IMG/VR virus record: IMGVR_UViG_3300047300_000226
Coordinates: 1-38,431 of that record
Origin: a virus
Reading direction: 5' to 3' (one strand)
DNA: 38,431 nt
In this document: positions 22,962 through 37,241 of the stretch, piece after piece
How positions within the stretch are numbered: the stretch's first letter is position 1
Layout of the letters: each line of letters opens with the position of its first letter
Program-made: the position numbers and the translations under genes
Notes under the pieces: model-generated
What the model saw: only the letters and a program-made list of their open reading frames with translations
The model's database searches: none
Told to the model about the DNA's origin: nothing

Positions 22962-24986
22962 TTAAGCTCCGTATTGTGAAGTGTACCAGTCACGTAATGG
23001 CGATGCGACATCACGAGGGACTGCTGGAAGAAGTCTGTTATAGTTCTGCTGTACCTTAGTGAAATAATCATCTGTGTACATTGGAGGTAACTGCGTAGGT
23101 AATGTCCCTACTGGAACTGTAGTTCCCATATTTGACAATGCTGAAGTAGCTCCCAAAGTGCCAAACAAACCTAAACCAGCTTTAATCAAATTAGCCATCT
23201 GCTCATCAGTTAAACCTAATTCATTAGTTTTCTTATTATCAGTTGTGGTTGTAGTCGTGTTTGTTACAGAAGGTGGCAACAGAGTTGAAGGAAGTGTTGC
23301 TAAAGTCTCTCCAACTGTTGTCAGCTTAGGAGCTGTAATAGTCTGTGTTGGTATTGAAGTATTTGTTAATGGAAGTGAAGATGTAATAGCACTTACGACA
23401 TCCTGTGTTGTAGCAGGTCTAGTACCTGTAACTTCCACATTAGCCAAATTAGCTGGTGTACCTGTATTAGCTGCCAGCTGACTATTAACTAAATTAATTA
23501 CAGCTTGATCAACTTGTTCAGTAGTTTTAGGAGTTGTTACATTAACTGTTGGAGTTGTTACATTGCTTAACAAACCACCAGCATTAATTACTGGAGCTGT
23601 AGCACCTGTAATGTTTACTGAGCCGCCATCCGTAACTGGAGTACTTACAGCTACTGGAGTTGTAGAAACAGTACCATTGATATAGTCTGCCAATGCTTTT
23701 TGAGCTTCCTCTGAACCCAATAAATCAGCCATTGCTGCATCATACTTAGTTCCATACAAAGGATTAGAACCACCGTATCTTGGATCTAAACCTGCAGCTA
23801 AGTCAGCAGCTGAGGTAGAATCATACATCAGGTTATTTAACTCACTACCTAAGAAGCCGCCACCACCACCAACTAAAGCAGCTCTTAGGATGTCCTCTGT
23901 AGAACCTCCGGTTACAGCTTGAGTACCAGCACCAATCGTAGCACCTGTAGCACCTGCCAAAGCAGAGCCTGTAAGACTTGGGAAAGCAGATGTTAATGCC
24001 TGAGTGATAAATGGAAGACCAACTGTAGAAGCTGCTAAACCAATCACAGGAGCTGCAGCAGCTAACAAGCCACGATCACCGCCACCTGCAAATGTACCTG
24101 ATGCAATAACTTCGCCAGTCTTAGGGTTTACAGTTTGCCAGTTAGCTGGGTTATTAGGATCTACTTTTGTTTCGTAAACGACTTGAGGAATTCCAGCAAT
24201 CTGTTGGTCAATATTGTCGCCTTCAATGACAGTTCCACGAGCTGTAGGTATAGCTCCTGTCTTTTGTGTCTGAACAATTGCTTGAGGTGTGCTAGGTGGT
24301 ACTTCATTCTTAAATTGAGATAGAGCGTCAATAACTGACTGATTATAAATAGATGTGCCTTCAGCATTGGTGTGCAGAGCATCAACCAACAAAGATTTAT
24401 TCTTAAGAATCTCACCTTGAGTGTTAACCAAAGCTACATTCTTATTTTCATTAGCAATCTCTTTAAATAGAGGATCTACATCAGGATTGAAGTTATTATT
24501 CTGTACATCTTGAATTGAAGCTGCATAAGGTGAGCCAGTCAAGACAACATTAACACCTTGATCACCTAAAGTCTTAACAATCTGATTGATGTTATCTTTA
24601 ACAGTTTCCTTATCTACGCCTTGCAAAAAGTCAACACCACCAGTCTGTAGAAACACTGTAGCATTAGGATCAAAAGCACCGCCACCAGCTAAGAATGTAT
24701 TGAGCTGGTTTAAAGTATCAGCAGTTGTAGCACCGCCAACAGCATAGTTAGATGTTTGTTGACCTGTTGCCGCTGTTAACTCATTTGCAAGTGTTGGGTT
24801 TAAACTGTTCCAGCTTGCACCTGCTAAGATGTTGCCACTTAACATACCACTTGTTGTAGGAGCTGCTTGTGACCAGTTATATTCATTTAAAGCTCTATTT
24901 TGTTCATCACGTAAAGCAGCAGCAGCTTCCCAACTACCTGTAAGTTGGTATAGCTGTTCATCACTCATTACCTGTGGTGCTGCCAT
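22962..24986 (-). CDS. SGNH-hydrolase-like virion protein, 674 aa
   Basis: Start at ATG 24986, 1 nt after the upstream stop and preceded by AAGGCGAG. The N-terminal domain (about 50-225) looks like an SGNH/GDSL esterase: block I GAS (S58, usual GDS), block II YAVGGATT (G84), block III QTGGVDF (GxND becomes GGVD, so the oxyanion Asn is missing) and block V VDALHTN (D202, H205). The rest is glycine- and threonine-rich repetitive sequence of structural type. May deacetylate or de-esterify surface glycans or may be a non-catalytic relic. It lies between capsid and fibre genes. Confidence 0.7.
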   Translation of the reverse strand: MAAPQVMSDEQLYQLTGSWEAAAALRDEQNRALNEYNWSQAAPTTSGMLSGNILAGASWNSLNPTLANELTAATGQQTSNYAVGGATTADTLNQLNTFLAGGGAFDPNATVFLQTGGVDFLQGVDKETVKDNINQIVKTLGDQGVNVVLTGSPYAASIQDVQNNNFNPDVDPLFKEIANENKNVALVNTQGEILKNKSLLVDALHTNAEGTSIYNQSVIDALSQFKNEVPPSTPQAIVQTQKTGAIPTARGTVIEGDNIDQQIAGIPQVVYETKVDPNNPANWQTVNPKTGEVIASGTFAGGGDRGLLAAAAPVIGLAASTVGLPFITQALTSAFPSLTGSALAGATGATIGAGTQAVTGGSTEDILRAALVGGGGGFLGSELNNLMYDSTSAADLAAGLDPRYGGSNPLYGTKYDAAMADLLGSEEAQKALADYINGTVSTTPVAVSTPVTDGGSVNITGATAPVINAGGLLSNVTTPTVNVTTPKTTEQVDQAVINLVNSQLAANTGTPANLANVEVTGTRPATTQDVVSAITSSLPLTNTSIPTQTITAPKLTTVGETLATLPSTLLPPSVTNTTTTTTDNKKTNELGLTDEQMANLIKAGLGLFGTLGATSALSNMGTTVPVGTLPTQLPPMYTDDYFTKVQQNYNRLLPAVPRDVASPLRDWYTSQYGA

Positions 24987-24987
24987 G

Positions 24988-25320
24988 TTACTCGCCTTTT
25001 CTATATAGTTCAAATGTGTTGACTGTGTTCATTGTCGAGCCAGCTTCAGACTCCATACGAACCTGATCACCCTCTTCCAAGACAACATAAGCACCATCAT
25101 TAAACTTAATGAACTGTGTTGGACTTAAGACATAGCCATCTAGAATATGAATCTCAGTAGTTGTACTAGCATCGTACCAAATTGCATCAATAGCTTTGTT
25201 GTTACCAGTTGTGTTAACCACGTAACAAAGATTCCACTTAGCATAGTAACCAGTTGGAACCGTATAAACTGTTGTCTTAGTTGCTGCTGTCAGCACTGTC
25301 CCCACTGATACTGATCTCAT
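24988..25320 (-). CDS. Small structural protein, 110 aa
   Basis: Strand-rich protein: MRSVSVGTVLTAATKTTVYT, VPTGYYAKWNLCYVVNTTGN, then ILDGYVLSPTQFIKFNDGAY. This beta-sandwich pattern resembles small phage head or fibre accessory proteins, often a decoration or connector protein next to the capsid gene; not identified further. AAAGG lies 9 nt upstream of the start. The start overlaps the preceding gene by 44 nt. Confidence 0.75.
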   Translation of the reverse strand: MRSVSVGTVLTAATKTTVYTVPTGYYAKWNLCYVVNTTGNNKAIDAIWYDASTTTEIHILDGYVLSPTQFIKFNDGAYVVLEEGDQVRMESEAGSTMNTVNTFELYRKGE

Positions 25321-25507: not shown

Positions 25508-25538
25508 AAAAAGGCTCCCTCCTTGTGAGAGGGAACCT
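25508..25538 (-). terminator. Intrinsic terminator after the major capsid gene
   Basis: On the minus strand, 10 nt after the capsid stop, AGGTTCCCTC pairs with GAGGGAGCCT (one G-U) around a 7-nt loop, followed by TTTTT. It should stop part of the transcription just after the capsid gene, giving more capsid mRNA than tail mRNA. Confidence 0.85.
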
Positions 25539-27941: not shown

Positions 27942-27970
27942 TTGACACACAATGGTTTATATGATAAAAT
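27942..27970 (+). promoter_or_regulatory. Putative sigma70 promoter for the antisense HNH gene
   Basis: TTGACA (27942-27947), 17-nt spacer, TAAAAT (27965-27970), with TG one base before the -10 (extended -10). It lies 30 nt before the HNH ATG at 28000. One of the best consensus matches in the window. Confidence 0.7.
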
Positions 27971-27999
27971 TCTACTTATTTTTCAATAAAAGGAACTTT

Positions 28000-28560
28000 A
28001 TGATTAAAACCAAGCTAACAGCCCAAGATAAATCTAATATTCTTCAATGGGCACAAGAAGGTCTCCGATATACTGAAATCTCTAAACGTTTAGATGGCAA
28101 AGTATCTCGTCAACGTATAAAACAGATAGCTGAAAAAAACAAGATTGATTCTGTTAGTATCCGTAAAGCTAAAAAAGAAAAAGAATACATCGATAAGATG
28201 TTTGCTAAACACGGATCTCGTTGGAACGACAAGGAATACACTAAATCTTTAATCTTCCAATCTATGTTGCTTAAATTTAGCAATAAAAAACACAATAACT
28301 ATAAATGGGAGTGGAACATCGAGTTTGGAGACATTGAATTTCCTACACACTGCCCAGTATTAGGTATTGAACTTGACTACCTAACTGAAGAAGGTGTACG
28401 TAATGAACATTCAGTATCCTTTGATCGTGTAAACCCCTCTAAAGGTTACGTTAAAGGCAACGTCATAGTGATGTCTTGGAGAGCTAATCGCATTAAAAAC
28501 GATGGAACTTCCCAAGAACATCAACTAATTGCTGACTTTATGCGTTCTTACGAGTCTTAG
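28000..28560 (+). CDS. HNH-type homing endonuclease, antisense within the late arm
   Basis: 186 residues from ATG 28000 with AAAGGAA just upstream. The N-terminal helix-turn-helix (about 11-46: ILQWAQEGLRYTEISKRLDG, VSRQRIKQI) should bind the target site. The C-terminal half has the degenerate HNH pattern HCPVLGIELDYL, then H137, D142-R143, KGNVIVMSWRANRIKN (N154, N163), well known from free-standing phage endonucleases. It is oriented against all surrounding genes, has its own promoter, and converges on the portal gene with a 23-nt overlap at the 3' ends. Base composition is more AT-rich. Selfish element inserted between portal and head genes. Confidence 0.9.
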   Translation: MIKTKLTAQDKSNILQWAQEGLRYTEISKRLDGKVSRQRIKQIAEKNKIDSVSIRKAKKEKEYIDKMFAKHGSRWNDKEYTKSLIFQSMLLKFSNKKHNNYKWEWNIEFGDIEFPTHCPVLGIELDYLTEEGVRNEHSVSFDRVNPSKGYVKGNVIVMSWRANRIKNDGTSQEHQLIADFMRSYES

Positions 28561-33128: not shown

Positions 33129-33186
33129 CGTCTTTATCCTCTATAGGGGAGACTTTTATATATAGTACTATAGAGTACTAAGACAT

Positions 33187-33248: not shown

Positions 33249-33291
33249 TACTTATAATATTACTTTTAATAGTGTATTTAACTTCTATGTT
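33249..33291 (-). promoter_or_regulatory. Conserved leader element, copy A (late arm)
   Basis: Read on the minus strand, 43 bp matching copy B at 37129-37170 at 40 of 43 aligned columns (one indel, two changes). Shared core AATACACTATTAAA, then AATATTATAAGTA. It faces the terminase gene. It could be a phage-specific promoter, an activator site or an antitermination/leader signal. Confidence 0.7.
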
Positions 33292-33383
33292 CCCTTTCCA
33301 AGGTGTACAGATCAGCCTTTGAAGTCTTAACTTAGTAGTGGGGTCAGGCTACTTAGTATACACAATTATTTCCTTTGATGAAT

Positions 33384-33412
33384 ATTGTATCACACTTTTA
33401 CTTTACTTACAA
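33384..33412 (-). promoter_or_regulatory. Putative late-arm promoter
   Basis: Minus strand: TTGTAA (33407-33412), 17-nt spacer, TACAAT (33384-33389) with TG just before the -10 (extended). A transcript from about 33377 would have a leader of about 250 nt containing element A and the ATAACAT repeats before the small terminase gene. Confidence 0.55.
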
Positions 33413-33447
33413 TGGTATGTCTAATTATTTATCTAATTTCTTTCACT

Positions 33448-33465
33448 TTAGAGTCTAAACTCTAA
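33448..33465. repeat. Perfect 7-bp inverted repeat upstream of the late promoter
   Basis: TTAGAGT (33448-33454) and ACTCTAA (33459-33465) flank CTAA. It lies about 35 bp upstream of the putative -35, a suitable place for an activator or repressor. No T-run follows, so it is not a terminator. Confidence 0.45.
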
Positions 33466-33529
33466 CTTATTGTCTGTACTTATCCTAGATTGTATACACT
33501 TCTGTATGCACATTTTAGGTACTTTGTAG

Positions 33530-33612
33530 TTCTTGTAAGTTTTACTTTGTAGATCAAGGACTTATAGTTACTTCATCTGTCCCTAATTATTCCTTTTTTG
33601 TGTACTTTGTAG
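33530..33612. repeat. TACTTTGTAG direct repeat, three copies
   Basis: Identical 10-mers at 33530-33539, 33543-33552 and 33603-33612, same orientation. They resemble iterons or sites for a regulator in the control region, upstream of the DnaA boxes. Confidence 0.5.
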
Positions 33613-33701
33613 GCTCCCACAAAAGTAATCACCAAAGCCATGACCCTCCCCCCAGTGTCTTTGAAGTTAGTACTTACTCACAAGGCACTCGAAAGCTAAA
33701 C

Positions 33702-33720
33702 GTTAATGAGAATCATTCGC
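33702..33720. promoter_or_regulatory. Fur-box-like sequence
   Basis: GTTAATGAGAATCATTCGC matches 15 of 19 positions of the E. coli Fur consensus, including the central AATGA.AATCATT. The position between the repeats and the DnaA boxes is suggestive but chance matching at this level is possible in an AT-rich region. Confidence 0.35.
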
Positions 33721-33727
33721 ATTTAGA

Positions 33728-33763
33728 GTGACTGAGTAGTCTACATTGTGACTGAGTAGTCAC
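33728..33763. repeat. Tandem GTGACTGAGTAGTC operator-like repeat
   Basis: GTGACTGAGTAGTC occurs at 33728-33741 and 33748-33761, a 20-bp period (about two helix turns). The second copy extends to a dyad GTGACT-gagt-AGTCAC (33748-33763). Looks like a pair of protein-binding sites on the same face of the helix. A related GGTCA-g-TGACC dyad is at 34022-34032. Confidence 0.5.
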
Positions 33764-33889
33764 TTTATAGGTTGGTTGGTCTGGAAAGTGACGCATGAGG
33801 GACGATGTAGCACCCTCTGAAGCATACCTATACTGGTAGGGGTATATACTCTGGAGGGTATACAGTGTAGCATAAAAGCAACACTAGAG

Positions 33890-33987
33890 TTATCCACAGG
33901 TTACTCACAGGCTGTGGATAAGATACTCCATGGGGTATACAGTTATACACAGGTTAAGTCTTATATAAGAGTTGAAACTGTGGATAA
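33890..33987. promoter_or_regulatory. DnaA-box cluster, putative replication origin
   Basis: Three perfect TTATCCACA 9-mers (33890-33898 plus strand; 33913-33921 and 33979-33987 minus strand) and one TTATACACA (33943-33951 plus) lie within 98 bp; TTACTCACA at 33901-33909 is a weak fifth. AT-rich TTATATAAG (33961-33969) is between them. This matches bacterial origin architecture and suggests the host initiator DnaA acts here. Confidence 0.75.
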
Positions 33988-34215
33988 GTAGCAGTTGTGG
34001 TGTTGATAACATTTGCCAAGGGGTCAGTGACCAAAACATGAATAATCGCTCTAAGGCCGTTCTAAGGGCTTCTAGCCACTATGAAGAAATCTCACGCAGT
34101 CTATGAGAATAAGTATAGATAAACTGTAGATTGTAAGGTTTGTGTAAGGTAGGTCTGGACAATAGAGGTCATGGAAGGCAAGGAGCTGACCAGTTAACCA
34201 ATAGGAGATCATCAC

Positions 34216-34395
34216 ATGACAGAGACACTCAAGAGCATCTTGAAAGACCTATCACAGACAGGTCAGGCAACGATCCTCAACCACAGTATCAGAGAGCTAA
34301 ATGCCGCTCAGGAGCTGATCGACGCAGGCATCTGCTACCGTTCCAATACACTGACAGGCTATTTTATCATCAAGTTTGGCAGGGAGGCCGTATGA
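34216..34395 (+). CDS. Hypothetical protein, 59 aa, first gene of the plus arm
   Basis: MTETLKSILKDLSQTGQATI, then LNHSIRELNAAQELIDAGIC. AGGAGA lies 7 nt upstream. Two short helices and a C-terminal strand (YFIIKFG); the order helix-turn-helix-strand resembles small winged-helix proteins, but this is weak. As first gene of the early arm it is a candidate early regulator or host-takeover protein. Coupled to the next gene by ATGA. Confidence 0.65.
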   Translation: MTETLKSILKDLSQTGQATILNHSIRELNAAQELIDAGICYRSNTLTGYFIIKFGREAV

Positions 34396-34490
34396 GCAAA
34401 GAAACACTCTATGATGTACTGACAGCGGTAGCCATTGGGTTACTGTTAACGGTAGGTTTATTGTCTTATTTTGATGTCCTCATTAAGTAA
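34392..34490 (+). CDS. Single-helix membrane microprotein, 32 aa
   Basis: MSKETLYDVLTAVAIGLLLT, then VGLLSYFDVLIK: one hydrophobic helix covering residues about 8-28. It starts at the ATGA overlap with GGGAGG just upstream. Membrane-embedded early products in other phages act on host envelope proteins or on superinfecting phage; that role is only a possibility here. Confidence 0.6.
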   Translation: MSKETLYDVLTAVAIGLLLTVGLLSYFDVLIK

Positions 34491-34502
34491 AGGGTTATTA
34501 TC

Positions 34503-34784
34503 ATGTCAACTATCGAGCAAACTGCACAAGCTTTCATCAATCACAAGTCAGCACGTTGCCACAATGCACACACTGACGGTCAACGGTACACCTTACACCG
34601 TACAGTCATCGTTTACTGGAATGAGAAAGGCCAACTGGTGACAGATTGGGGCGGCTATTACACACGAACCACAGCCTCGCACATTAACGCAGTCTTAAAA
34701 GCCTATGGAAGCGTTAGACGTGTCTCATACGCTAAAGCACGGGATACCAATGAAGGCAAAGTGACTCACCTGCTTGTCGCATAA
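34503..34784 (+). CDS. Hypothetical protein, 93 aa
   Basis: MSTIEQTAQAFINHKSARCH, then strands (YTLHRTVIVYWNEKGQLVTD) and a helix (TTASHINAVLKAYG), a basic small alpha/beta protein. AAAGGG precedes the start. The higher-GC codon use (ggcggctat) resembles the neighbouring 104-aa gene. No family recognised. Confidence 0.75.
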   Translation: MSTIEQTAQAFINHKSARCHNAHTDGQRYTLHRTVIVYWNEKGQLVTDWGGYYTRTTASHINAVLKAYGSVRRVSYAKARDTNEGKVTHLLVA

Positions 34785-34880
34785 GTGACATTCTAGACTG
34801 TAGCGTCCTGCTAGGATGCTAGGGCCTGTAATGTCTACAGGGTAACACAGGCCACGGCCTAACTTTTAAAGAGGTTAAAC

Positions 34881-35195
34881 ATGAGCACTTATAACGGATG
34901 GACAAACTACGAAACTTGGCTTGCTAATCTGTGGCTAGGCGAAGACTCTTACGCCACAGAGGAGATCTCTAACGTCTGCCTAGGTCTGATGGGATCTTGG
35001 GAGGATAAGTCAGACGTTGACTATCGCTTAGCTGAACACATCAAAGATATGATGCAAGAATGGATTGACAATGCTCAAGATGCTCAAAATGGCTTTGTAA
35101 CTGACCTGATCTCAGCGGCATTTCAGCAGATCAACTTCAGAGAGATTGCAGGGCACTTCTACGATGAATTGAAAGAACTTGAGGAGAATGAATAA
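34881..35195 (+). CDS. DUF7249-like protein, 104 aa
   Basis: MSTYNGWTNYETWLANLWLG is a signature I recognise from a family of small phage and mobile-element proteins (DUF7249-like, NGW.NYETW). The rest is helical and acidic (RLAEHIKDMMQEWIDNAQDA). The family often sits with anti-restriction or early accessory genes, but its activity is not known to me. AAAGAGG precedes the start; coupled to the next gene by TAATG. Confidence 0.8.
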   Translation: MSTYNGWTNYETWLANLWLGEDSYATEEISNVCLGLMGSWEDKSDVDYRLAEHIKDMMQEWIDNAQDAQNGFVTDLISAAFQQINFREIAGHFYDELKELEENE

Positions 35196-35428
35196 TGACT
35201 TATGACTTTACACACAAAGAAAAAGCTTTTATGAAGGCATACAGACTTTGTATGGGCACTGCACCTACTCATGAGCTTGAGTACTTCCTAGAATACAGGG
35301 AAAAGGCTCAAAAGGGTGACTTTAGAGAACAACAGCTTGTCAGGGAAGGGGCTGAGTATTGGAACAATATTGAGGACGCTTGGGAGCTTTGGTTACAGGC
35401 TATTGATTACGCTAGGAGTGCAAAATAA
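35195..35428 (+). CDS. Hypothetical protein, 77 aa
   Basis: MTYDFTHKEKAFMKAYRLCM, mostly helical and acidic, with several aromatic residues (YFLEYREKAQ, EDAWELWLQAIDYA). ATG overlaps the previous stop. Early-arm gene with no recognised relatives. Confidence 0.7.
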   Translation: MTYDFTHKEKAFMKAYRLCMGTAPTHELEYFLEYREKAQKGDFREQQLVREGAEYWNNIEDAWELWLQAIDYARSAK

Positions 35429-35608
35429 ATGAATACTAAACTACTAAAACACTCCCGTGAATTATTCCAGTCATATGATGTCCCTGAACACGTAAGGCGT
35501 GACTATAGACGCAAGTGGATACGTTCTGTACGTCTATTGGGTGACAAATGGCTTTTAAGTCAACCTGTACAGCGTCTGACACCTGTGAAGGGGACTCTAG
35601 ATGTATAA
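35429..35608 (+). CDS. Hypothetical basic protein, 59 aa
   Basis: MNTKLLKHSRELFQSYDVPE, then HVRRDYRRKWIRSVRLLGDK: arginine-rich, ending TPVKGTLDV. The pattern of charged residues and WIRSVRLLG.KWLL could suit nucleic-acid or protein binding. It starts directly after the previous stop and overlaps the next start by 8 nt. Unknown. Confidence 0.7.
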   Translation: MNTKLLKHSRELFQSYDVPEHVRRDYRRKWIRSVRLLGDKWLLSQPVQRLTPVKGTLDV

Positions 35609-35756
35609 GATCGTCAGTATATCCTCAGGCATTGTTGTTGCAACCTTTAATAAGCTATCATTCGCTCAGGAGTGGCTTCAAGATAACAACAACTTGGAAG
35701 GTCAACCTGCAAACCTTTATAAACTTGTCATACAAAGGAAGGAATCTAAGAAATGA
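35601..35756 (+). CDS. Hypothetical protein, 51 aa
   Basis: MYKIVSISSGIVVATFNKLS, then FAQEWLQDNNN and a final strand (YKLVIQRKE). A small beta-hairpin, helix, strand unit of the sort found in many tiny early phage proteins. Starts with ATGTATAA over the previous stop and couples to the next gene by ATGA. Confidence 0.65.
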   Translation: MYKIVSISSGIVVATFNKLSFAQEWLQDNNNLEGQPANLYKLVIQRKESKK

Positions 35757-35989
35757 GCTTACAGTCATTCATTAAGAGCAAAGAATTGGGATTGTATGAC
35801 TTTGGATGTGTCTCAGTGGTGTATCCTACTGGAAGATTTATTGAGGTATATTCTGATCCTTTGCCTGATTATTACGAGAAAAGGCATCGATACATGATAG
35901 AGGTTAGATTAAGCAAGATACTAGGATCTAAGAAATGGGTATCATTAAACAACTTAAAAGAGATAAGGAATGCACACCATGAACACTAG
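35753..35989 (+). CDS. Hypothetical protein, 78 aa
   Basis: MSLQSFIKSKELGLYDFGCV, strand-rich middle (VSVVYPTGRFIEVYSD) and a basic end. Reads as one small beta-rich domain. Coupled by ATGA to the gene before and overlapping the next by 11 nt. Unknown. Confidence 0.7.
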   Translation: MSLQSFIKSKELGLYDFGCVSVVYPTGRFIEVYSDPLPDYYEKRHRYMIEVRLSKILGSKKWVSLNNLKEIRNAHHEH

Positions 35990-36221
35990 AACATTTGAAT
36001 TCAGGACGCTATTGGCTGATTCTTTGGCAGTAGTGGAGGTGTCTTGTGAGATAGATGAAGACGGAGATTGTGTCGAGTTTAATCACGTTAAGTTTAATAA
36101 CTTTGACATCTTTGAAGTTATCTCTCAGAACCAATGGGATGACTTAGAACACGATGCTAGAGTACTTTATAAGGATGAACAGGAGACTCAAGCTGAGATA
36201 GATGCTGAGAATAGCCTTTAA
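35979..36221 (+). CDS. Hypothetical acidic protein, 80 aa
   Basis: ATG 35979 is preferred over 35970 because AAGGA (35965-35969) sits 9 nt upstream, too close to 35970. Begins MNTRTFEFRTLLADSLAVVE, strands followed by an acidic helix (ALYKDEQETQAEIDAE-like C-terminus). The strong negative charge could mimic DNA, but no specific evidence supports that. Confidence 0.7.
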   Translation: MNTRTFEFRTLLADSLAVVEVSCEIDEDGDCVEFNHVKFNNFDIFEVISQNQWDDLEHDARVLYKDEQETQAEIDAENSL

Positions 36222-36277
36222 AGCCATTTAAAGGCCTATTTAAGCCGACTTTTAACCAACTTAATAGCGAGGTAGCC

Positions 36278-36472
36278 ATGTATTACACAAAAGGCTGTAT
36301 TGTGGGGTATTCAGGTGAAGGTGAAACTAGGAGTAAAGCTGTAACCATTAAGTTTGATTGCTTAATGTCTAACTATGACTTAGAAAGGTTATTAGAACCT
36401 ATCAGACACCAGTTTAATGAGATGGGTGACAGGATGGACTTTAAAATGACCTTAGAAAGTGAGGATATTTAA
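36278..36472 (+). CDS. Hypothetical protein, 64 aa
   Basis: MYYTKGCIVGYSGEGETRSK, with a strand (AVTIKFD) then a helix (LERLLEPIRHQFNEMG) and a final strand (DFKMTLESED). Looks like a compact alpha/beta fold. GCGAGG precedes the start. The 56-nt gap upstream holds TTTAAAGCC-like repeats. Unknown. Confidence 0.7.
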   Translation: MYYTKGCIVGYSGEGETRSKAVTIKFDCLMSNYDLERLLEPIRHQFNEMGDRMDFKMTLESEDI

Positions 36473-36473
36473 G

Positions 36474-36683
36474 ATGTTATCTGAGATTGACATAAAAGAT
36501 TGGATTGAGCAACCCTCAGTCCCACTGTATGACGTACCCAAAGAGACACCGATTAAGACAATCAATGGATTGTTATGGTTTAAACACATTGACGGGATGT
36601 ACAGCCTCTGTTACGATGCTAATGGTAAACCTGTGCACTTAGCGGCTTGGGCAACAGTTAACCCTTTTAAAAGGAAACCATGA
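36474..36683 (+). CDS. Hypothetical protein, 69 aa
   Basis: ATG 36474 begins MLSEIDIKDWIEQPSVPLYD, then VPKETPIKTINGLLWFKHID and SLCYDANGKPVHLAAWATVN. The pattern of a short N-terminal helix, PLY(D/E)V and a strand pair recalls small proteins in other T7-like phages, unnamed. GAGG lies 9 nt upstream. The stop overlaps the next start by 4 nt. Confidence 0.7.
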   Translation: MLSEIDIKDWIEQPSVPLYDVPKETPIKTINGLLWFKHIDGMYSLCYDANGKPVHLAAWATVNPFKRKP

Positions 36684-36835
36684 TGATCATGAATGAATAT
36701 TGCTATCAGGTAAGCCCAACACGTACAGTTTGGGTGTATGCTGCCAATGAGGATGAAGCTGAGTCTAAGGTTTATGAAGAGTTAGGATATGACCCTGATG
36801 ACATGAATTTAATTGAAGTGGTGGAGGACGTATGA
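36680..36835 (+). CDS. Hypothetical protein, 51 aa
   Basis: MMIMNEYCYQVSPTRTVWVY, then AANEDEAESKVYEELGYDPD. A strand, an acidic helix and a strand (LIEVVEDV), a tiny ferredoxin-like half-fold. AAGGA is 5 nt upstream, and ATGA overlaps join it to both neighbours. Unknown. Confidence 0.68.
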   Translation: MMIMNEYCYQVSPTRTVWVYAANEDEAESKVYEELGYDPDDMNLIEVVEDV

Positions 36836-37056
36836 AGTGTCTATGTTGCGATAAGATATTGACAGACTTTGAAAGTACCCGTAAGCACGCTGTAACTGGT
36901 ATGTTCATTGATCTATGTCAACAATGCTTTAAAACTGTACAGAGTGACTCTCACCTGCCTACAAAGGACAGACAAGACCTCATATCAGCTGATGATATGG
37001 ATGACACTGTAGAGGATGAGGACAATATTGACACTACTGAAAGTAGGGACTATTAA
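36832..37056 (+). CDS. Zinc-binding protein, 74 aa
   Basis: MKCLCCDKILTDFESTRKHA with C3, C5/C6 and a second pair in DLCQQCF (C29, C32): a treble-clef or zinc-ribbon-like site. The remainder is strongly acidic (DDMDDTVEDEDNID). Small Zn proteins of this kind are common in phage early arms. Last gene before the internal control region at 37057. Confidence 0.8.
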   Translation: MKCLCCDKILTDFESTRKHAVTGMFIDLCQQCFKTVQSDSHLPTKDRQDLISADDMDDTVEDEDNIDTTESRDY

Positions 37057-37064
37057 GGTAGGGC

Positions 37065-37093
37065 TTGACAGAATCTTTAAAGTATGCTACCCT
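37065..37093 (+). promoter_or_regulatory. Putative promoter for the replication genes
   Basis: TTGACA (37065-37070), 17-nt spacer, TACCCT (37088-37093) with TG before the -10 (extended). It opens the 185-nt gap before the gene at 37242 and the primase-helicase. The -10 sits in the loop of a 10-bp inverted repeat. Confidence 0.55.
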
Positions 37094-37103
37094 TACTTTA
37101 AAG
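37075..37103. promoter_or_regulatory. Operator-like inverted repeat enclosing the -10
   Basis: CTTTAAAGTA (37075-37084) and TACTTTAAAG (37094-37103) form a perfect 10-bp inverted repeat around TGCTACCCT. Each arm contains the palindrome CTTTAAAG, 21 bp apart; a third copy lies at 37186-37193. A protein bound here would block or shape this promoter. Confidence 0.6.
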
Positions 37104-37128
37104 GTATCTACAGAGTACCTATGACATT

Positions 37129-37170
37129 AACATAGAAGTAAATACACTATTAAAGATAATATTATAAGTA
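37129..37170 (+). promoter_or_regulatory. Conserved leader element, copy B (replication genes)
   Basis: 42 bp matching copy A of the late arm (33249-33291, opposite strand) at 40 of 43 aligned columns. It faces the replication genes, 36 nt after the putative -10. The pair suggests shared control of two operons by a phage-specific signal. Confidence 0.7.
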
Positions 37171-37241
37171 ATACTTATAAAGTTACTTTAAAGTGTAAGA
37201 TTTCACATAGTGATATAGACTAACCCATTGAAAGGATAATT

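Follow-up and report, generated by a model that had tools for sequence, protein, structure and literature searches.

The viral record IMGVR_UViG_3300047300_000226 (IMG/VR) was analyzed here over its full 38,431 bases, which we refer to as the window. The first 127 bases of the window recur as its last 127; thus, the window represents an essentially complete genome. Its gene set is T7-supergroup-like and includes a primase-helicase, a family A DNA polymerase, an exonuclease, an endonuclease I-like nuclease, a ribonucleotide reductase, terminase, portal and capsid. Its two divergent arms are separated by a 1-kb non-coding region, and the leaders of the replication operon and of the late operon, which begins with terminase, share a short element. 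The copy in the terminase leader (the S copy, AACATAGAAGTTAAATACACTATTAAAAGTAATATTATAAGTA) and that in the replication leader (the R copy, AACATAGAAG-TAAATACACTATTAAAGATAATATTATAAGTA) are identical in 40 of 43 aligned columns, with one gap and two substitutions, exactly as a previous reading of this DNA made from its letters alone (the sequence-only reading) had claimed, and AAGTTACTT is found near the element in both leaders. The two copies are on opposite strands and point away from each other. A generic repeat search of the genome ranked them first among its inverted repeats, and a mismatch scan of the window found no third copy. The Smith-Waterman score of the two window leaders was 78, the highest score among 100 first-order Markov randomizations being 32, and the leader pairs of most close relatives also scored far above such randomizations. 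The features of the leaders and the related genes are listed in Table 1.

Table 1. Positions in the window of the shared element, the associated promoters and predicted hairpins, and other features relevant to its proposed role.
Feature	Position	Strand	Description
S copy of the element (terminase leader)	33249..33291	-	Core AAATACACTATT at 33268-33279; same place in relatives
R copy of the element (replication leader)	37129..37170	+	Core AAATACACTATT at 37140-37151
S promoter	33384..33412	-	TTGTAA-N17-TACAAT with TG; mostly TTGACA-N17-TATAAT or TACAAT in relatives
R promoter	37065..37093	+	TTGACA-N17-TACCCT, extended -10 (TGC); kept across the 47 distinct aligned R leaders, the -10 rarely varying
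Hairpin A, S leader	33330..33357	-	Near-invariant loop CCUGACCCCA (also given as CCTGACCCCA); stem covariation
Predicted hairpin B, S leader	33289..33306	-	ACACCTTGGAAAGGGAAC; adjoins the element 5'; CCC/GGG and CCTT/AAGG forms in relatives
Predicted hairpin region 1, R leader	37095..37138	+	Tandem units of ~11 nucleotides, 5' of the core
Predicted hairpin 2, R leader	37150..37192	+	TTAAAG...CTTTAA outside, TTATAAGT/ACTTATAA inside; 3' of the core
Strong intrinsic terminator	25512..25538	-	Within the late operon, immediately 3' of the major capsid gene
Zinc-ribbon-like protein, 74 amino acids	36832..37056	+	CxxC...CxxC; immediately 5' of the R leader; homologues in every relative compared
Basic protein, 93 amino acids	1619..1900	+	Isoelectric point 10.2; in 12/12 close-clade genomes compared and 0/6 diverged genomes

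The element is a real, position-specific and conserved cis element. We searched 2.9 million viral contigs for the exact 20-mer ATAGAAGTTAAATACACTAT and classed the DNA downstream of each site by translated search. The 20-mer was found at 86 sites in 84 stretches, 53 of them ahead of the replication operon and 28 ahead of terS; the remaining five were at contig ends, where the upstream flanks identified two replication and three terminase leaders. All 86 sites were in sense and within these two leaders, and each near-complete close relative had the 20-mer once per leader. The sequence-only reading had suggested a check of whether the element always precedes the terminase and primase operons; this was borne out among the close relatives and did not extend beyond their clade, where usually only the R copy is present. 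Of 67 full-length R leaders collected by a primase search, 58 contained AAATACACT. The exceptions were seven diverged leaders and those of two close relatives, L088 and L092, in which the core is substituted (TTAATATAACTATTAAAG, also given as AATATAACT) and the rest of the leader is very similar. Whether close relatives that share this gene order lack the element, the finding that was to count against it, was thus tested with a mostly favorable result.

Further analyses revealed the R core in much more distant phages. At ~70% primase identity, 27 of 61 cases had AAATACACT immediately after the same small zinc-ribbon-like gene, several more had close variants of the core and others had GTAAATACTACTTTATTG instead, so that a division of the relatives into clades with and without the core proved too simple. 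The deeply kept core is AAATACACT(ATT), while the second half of the motif as initially described, AATATTATAAGTA, is not the conserved part. Exact or variant S copies were found in 15 of 55 full-length terminase leaders and are restricted to the close clade, apart from a separate lineage (L059/G041) that has the element in both leaders. The S leader of G038 may hold a degenerate copy. The S copies of the close clade also tolerate indels (TACCACT, AACACACT), which are located in a putative unpaired stretch and have no counterpart in the R copies. Given that the R core reaches ~70% primase identity and the S copy is so restricted, the R site is ancestral or, failing that, the better kept of the two, with the S site more often gained or lost. 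An S copy that seems secondary could derive from the R copy, and other intergenic repeats are found in the region; both observations are consistent with a functionless repeat that spread from one leader to the other by recombination, with gene conversion keeping the copies similar. Such an origin is nevertheless very unlikely, because genomes that lack an S copy still conserve the R core, the S and R copies differ within one genome (TACCACT vs. TACACT) with the box kept in both, and all 86 positions are in the same two leaders.

No close isolate of the window was identified by megablast, and the window TerL was <35% identical to its best long isolate matches. Blastn against isolate phages gave no match above chance, and the core was not found near the primase of the isolates HTVC115P and CRP-125. 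A search for a host by exact match of the 20-mer returned 0 hits in ~85,000 bacterial and archaeal genomes.

Both copies are preceded by a host-type promoter of the sigma-70 type, in agreement with the promoter-like sequences pointed out in the sequence-only reading. In 54 of 65 distinct leaders the S promoter is at an identical distance to hairpin A. The near-consensus host promoter ahead of the late genes should fire at once, which suggests that control after initiation is likely. Upstream of the S promoter, we also noticed in many relatives a conserved GGGGGGAGGGT stretch and repeated ACACCC-loop-GGGGAAC hairpins (33570-33660, minus strand, in the window; L017, L024 and L028).

The phage was described as encoding no RNA polymerase, and none was found with Pfam, PHROGs and tblastn in 30 genomes, which comprised the window and 29 near-complete or large partial relatives. 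As positive controls, this Pfam library recognized the RNA polymerase of CRP-125, and the DNA polymerase of CRP-125 matched 29 of the 30 genomes. The promoters of T7 and SP6 have a CACTA core, to which CACTATTAAAG bears a local resemblance, and an unrecognized or virion-borne RNA polymerase might read the element as a T7-type phage promoter. This is extremely improbable, given the result of the polymerase search, the presence of two copies per genome where many would be expected along it, and a low-confidence fold of the 702-amino-acid virion protein that is all-helical and without an RNA polymerase-like match. The lack of an RNA polymerase, the host-type promoters and the conserved position make plausible a phage-controlled signal that acts with the host polymerase, as initially proposed; the sequence does not decide between the forms proposed for it (i.e., activator site, atypical promoter, antitermination or leader RNA).

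One such form is a DNA-level signal, either an activator site or a promoter (middle or late) under phage control, in which a phage factor would bind AAGT(T)AAATACACT and direct the host RNA polymerase to an AT-rich, -10-like sequence (TATAAK in this clade) downstream. Middle promoters of T4 have a MotA box, and in this clade a short conserved box is likewise found upstream of a -10-like sequence: TATAA[GT] is concentrated 12-16 nucleotides after ACACT in part of the close clade (18 occurrences in 40 distinct segments, with ~0.3 expected per position), and near-invariance over 12 nucleotides is what DNA recognition sites typically show. An atypical promoter with TATAAK as its -10 is a reading that holds for the close clade only. 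Unlike in T4, however, the spacing between box and -10 is lost in distant relatives that keep the core, and a complete and good host promoter is already present upstream of the box. Moreover, the commonest class of R copies (ACACTATATAAGTATTATTTAAG) has no TATAAK at 12-16 nucleotides, the S copies tolerate indels within the box, and no candidate activator was identified. On balance, we regard a DNA-level signal as unlikely.

Evidence for structure was found in both leaders. Compared to dinucleotide shuffles, the two halves of the R leaders, corresponding to hairpin region 1 and hairpin 2, had mean folding z scores of -2.2 and -2.3, respectively, and the whole leader had a mean of -2.8, while AT-rich windows of the same genomes gave -0.2 to -0.7. 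In 28 of 29 distinct leaders, the native flanks left the core more unpaired than shuffled ones did. In distant relatives, hairpin 2 showed one compensatory change, from ACTACTTA/TAAGTAGT to ACTACATA/TATGTAGT. In the S leader, the stem of hairpin A had two-sided changes at 5 of 9 pairs, and its covariation score was reached by 0 of 500 shuffles; this hairpin, with its CCUGACCCCA loop, is more widely conserved than the shared element. An architecture of hairpin, box and hairpin is therefore supported but unproven. RNAalifold returned no structure from the raw MAFFT alignment of the R leaders, probably because the hairpin arms shift register, and the covariance models of Rfam 15 gave only sub-threshold chance matches, none of them in the leaders. 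A closing stem between two ACTTTAAAGT repeats was rejected, as by eye the 5' repeat changes to CTATATAG without a matching change in the 3' repeat. A leader peptide was also rejected, as inspection of the R leaders by eye showed no conserved reading frame. It should be noted that the R leaders of L132, L133, L117, L118 and others contain small palindromes (e.g., GTGCCGTAGGCAC and AGTGTCGTAAGACACG) inserted after the R element and ahead of the start codon; these are not found in the close relatives and look like mobile palindromic repeats.

The succession of hairpin, AU-rich linker and hairpin in the 5' untranslated region of both operons is also the anatomy of an element for mRNA processing, stability or translation, in which an AU-rich single strand between stem-loops would be a cleavage target of a host RNase (E-like) or would protect both long messages. 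RNA-level control in the same leader is indicated by a separate hairpin (GTCTCC-loop-GGATAAAGAC; 33130-33153, minus strand) that covers the terS ribosome-binding site and is possibly translational in its effect; many relatives, distant ones included, carry this motif with altered stems (CATCTCC/GGATAAAGATG, CATGTCC/GGGTAAACATG and GTTCTCC/GGATAAAGAAC) ahead of terS as well as of other genes. The conservation of AAATACACT to ~70% primase identity is, however, stricter than RNase E sites generally require, and a role in mRNA processing, stability or translation is quite improbable.

Given these results, a mechanism via leader RNA and host RNA polymerase is the most likely, although our confidence in it is somewhat less than even; its chief rivals are the phage-controlled promoter and, after that, RNA processing or stability. 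The occurrence of the element only in sense and downstream of conserved sigma-70-type promoters counts for this mechanism, as does the placement of the S-copy indels in the putative unpaired stretch. Host RNA polymerase would start at the near-consensus promoters of the replication and late operons and would transcribe the hairpins, the near-invariant and probably single-stranded box (U)AAAUACACUAUU and then the second hairpin. By itself or together with a phage protein made early, the nascent leader RNA would modify the elongating polymerase, which would then read past sites of termination or pausing along these long operons, like the polymerase acted on by HK022 put RNA or lambda nut sites. 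We infer that the element acts as RNA and that its effect is antitermination or anti-pausing.

A need for read-through would be consistent with the terminator that follows the major capsid gene, although this fit is confounded by clade. The terminator was found in 13 of 13 readable close-clade genomes and in two of the six diverged genomes of the first set; its association with the S copy is strong but confounded by the same single clade, and G041, G007 and G009 are counter-examples. Among possible trans factors, the basic protein of 93 amino acids is a candidate and only a lead, as its distribution is confounded by phylogeny.

Several observations weigh against the leader-RNA mechanism. The replication operon showed no strong internal terminator, and distant relatives mostly lack the S copy. 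The greater unpairing of the core with its native flanks fails in distant relatives (17 of 28). The antisense strand folds as strongly as the sense strand, so the hairpins could be DNA dyads, and this lack of strand asymmetry is in favor of the DNA-level signal. Hairpin region 1 of the R leader has only one compensatory pair, and an arm-swap test of covariation was marginal (242 of 5000). Alignment scores to put were 8-14 and not above those of shuffles, and the leaders contain no boxA, the best matches to GCTCTTTAACA carrying 2-4 mismatches. In the absence of put similarity and of boxA, we do not class the element as a member of the put family.

The likeness to put is instead one of arrangement. 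Downstream of PL and PR, HK022 is described as having two put RNAs of ~70 nucleotides, each predicted to form two stem-loops (PMC9378689). When the same pairwise computation was applied to HK022, a similar opposite-strand pair was found in its early region, where the record itself has no put annotation. In both phages, two similar, outward-facing elements on opposite strands are located downstream of promoters (early promoters in the case of put) and head long operons transcribed by host RNA polymerase. For the R leader, two stem-loops are likewise predicted, with little covariation. In contrast to putL and putR, the element described here is AU-rich, weakly folded and ~100 rather than ~70 nucleotides long, and it lies ahead of the replication and late operons of a lytic phage without its own RNA polymerase.

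Lambda nutL and nutR and the boxB-boxA leaders of bacterial rrn operons are paired leader signals in which a hairpin is next to a short invariant linear box, and the leaders of the window share this layout. They differ in that they contain no boxA-like sequence and no N homologue was identified. Phages of the Cobavirus/SIO1 type, which belong to the T7 supergroup and lack an RNA polymerase (PMC6775973), have in common with the window a two-arm genome, T7-like replication genes and a bidirectional terminator between the arms; a point of difference is the low identity of the window TerL to isolate matches given above. The word 'promoter' is absent from the main text of PMC6775973, so no such element is described there. 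As far as the searched libraries show, the element is undescribed. With slightly more reserve than for the mechanism itself, we propose that it may represent an undescribed class of leader RNA in lytic, T7-like phages without RNA polymerase, which would make host RNA polymerase processive on the replication and late operons through the box AAAUACACUAUU and would be a non-homologous counterpart of put and nut.

Other features of the genome were noticed in the course of this analysis. The region between the arms contains four clustered DnaA-box-like sequences (TTATCCACA/TTATACACA; 33890-33987), and clusters of 3-8 of them are found in the majority of relatives, which suggests a candidate origin that uses host DnaA. 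An endonuclease VII/HNH-like gene (27952-28560, plus strand) with its own promoter-like sequence lies on the opposite strand inside the late operon and is present in only 1 of 18 relatives compared. In the structural region, a protein of 682 amino acids (22962-25013, minus strand) has a GDSL lipase/acylhydrolase domain (PF00657, 3e-7) and is possibly a tail-associated esterase. Adjacent small genes of the replication operon contain direct repeats (1494-1544/2014-2064, 90%, and 2123-2151/2329-2357, 93%) that point to a recent tandem gene duplication.

With a copy near the head of each of the two longest gene sets (DNA replication and virion genes), the shared element is probably an undescribed switch by which a group of uncultured phages without their own RNA polymerase steers that of the host. 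How late genes are timed in T7-like phages that lack an RNA polymerase is poorly known, and the element provides a concrete and testable handle on this question: it consists of one short box in two operons, with host-type promoters in place and with natural variants at hand in the substituted cores of L088 and L092. If the element is a true antitermination RNA, control of the put/nut type would no longer be confined to temperate phages of the lambdoid kind but would extend to lytic, uncultured phages that are found in many metagenomes.

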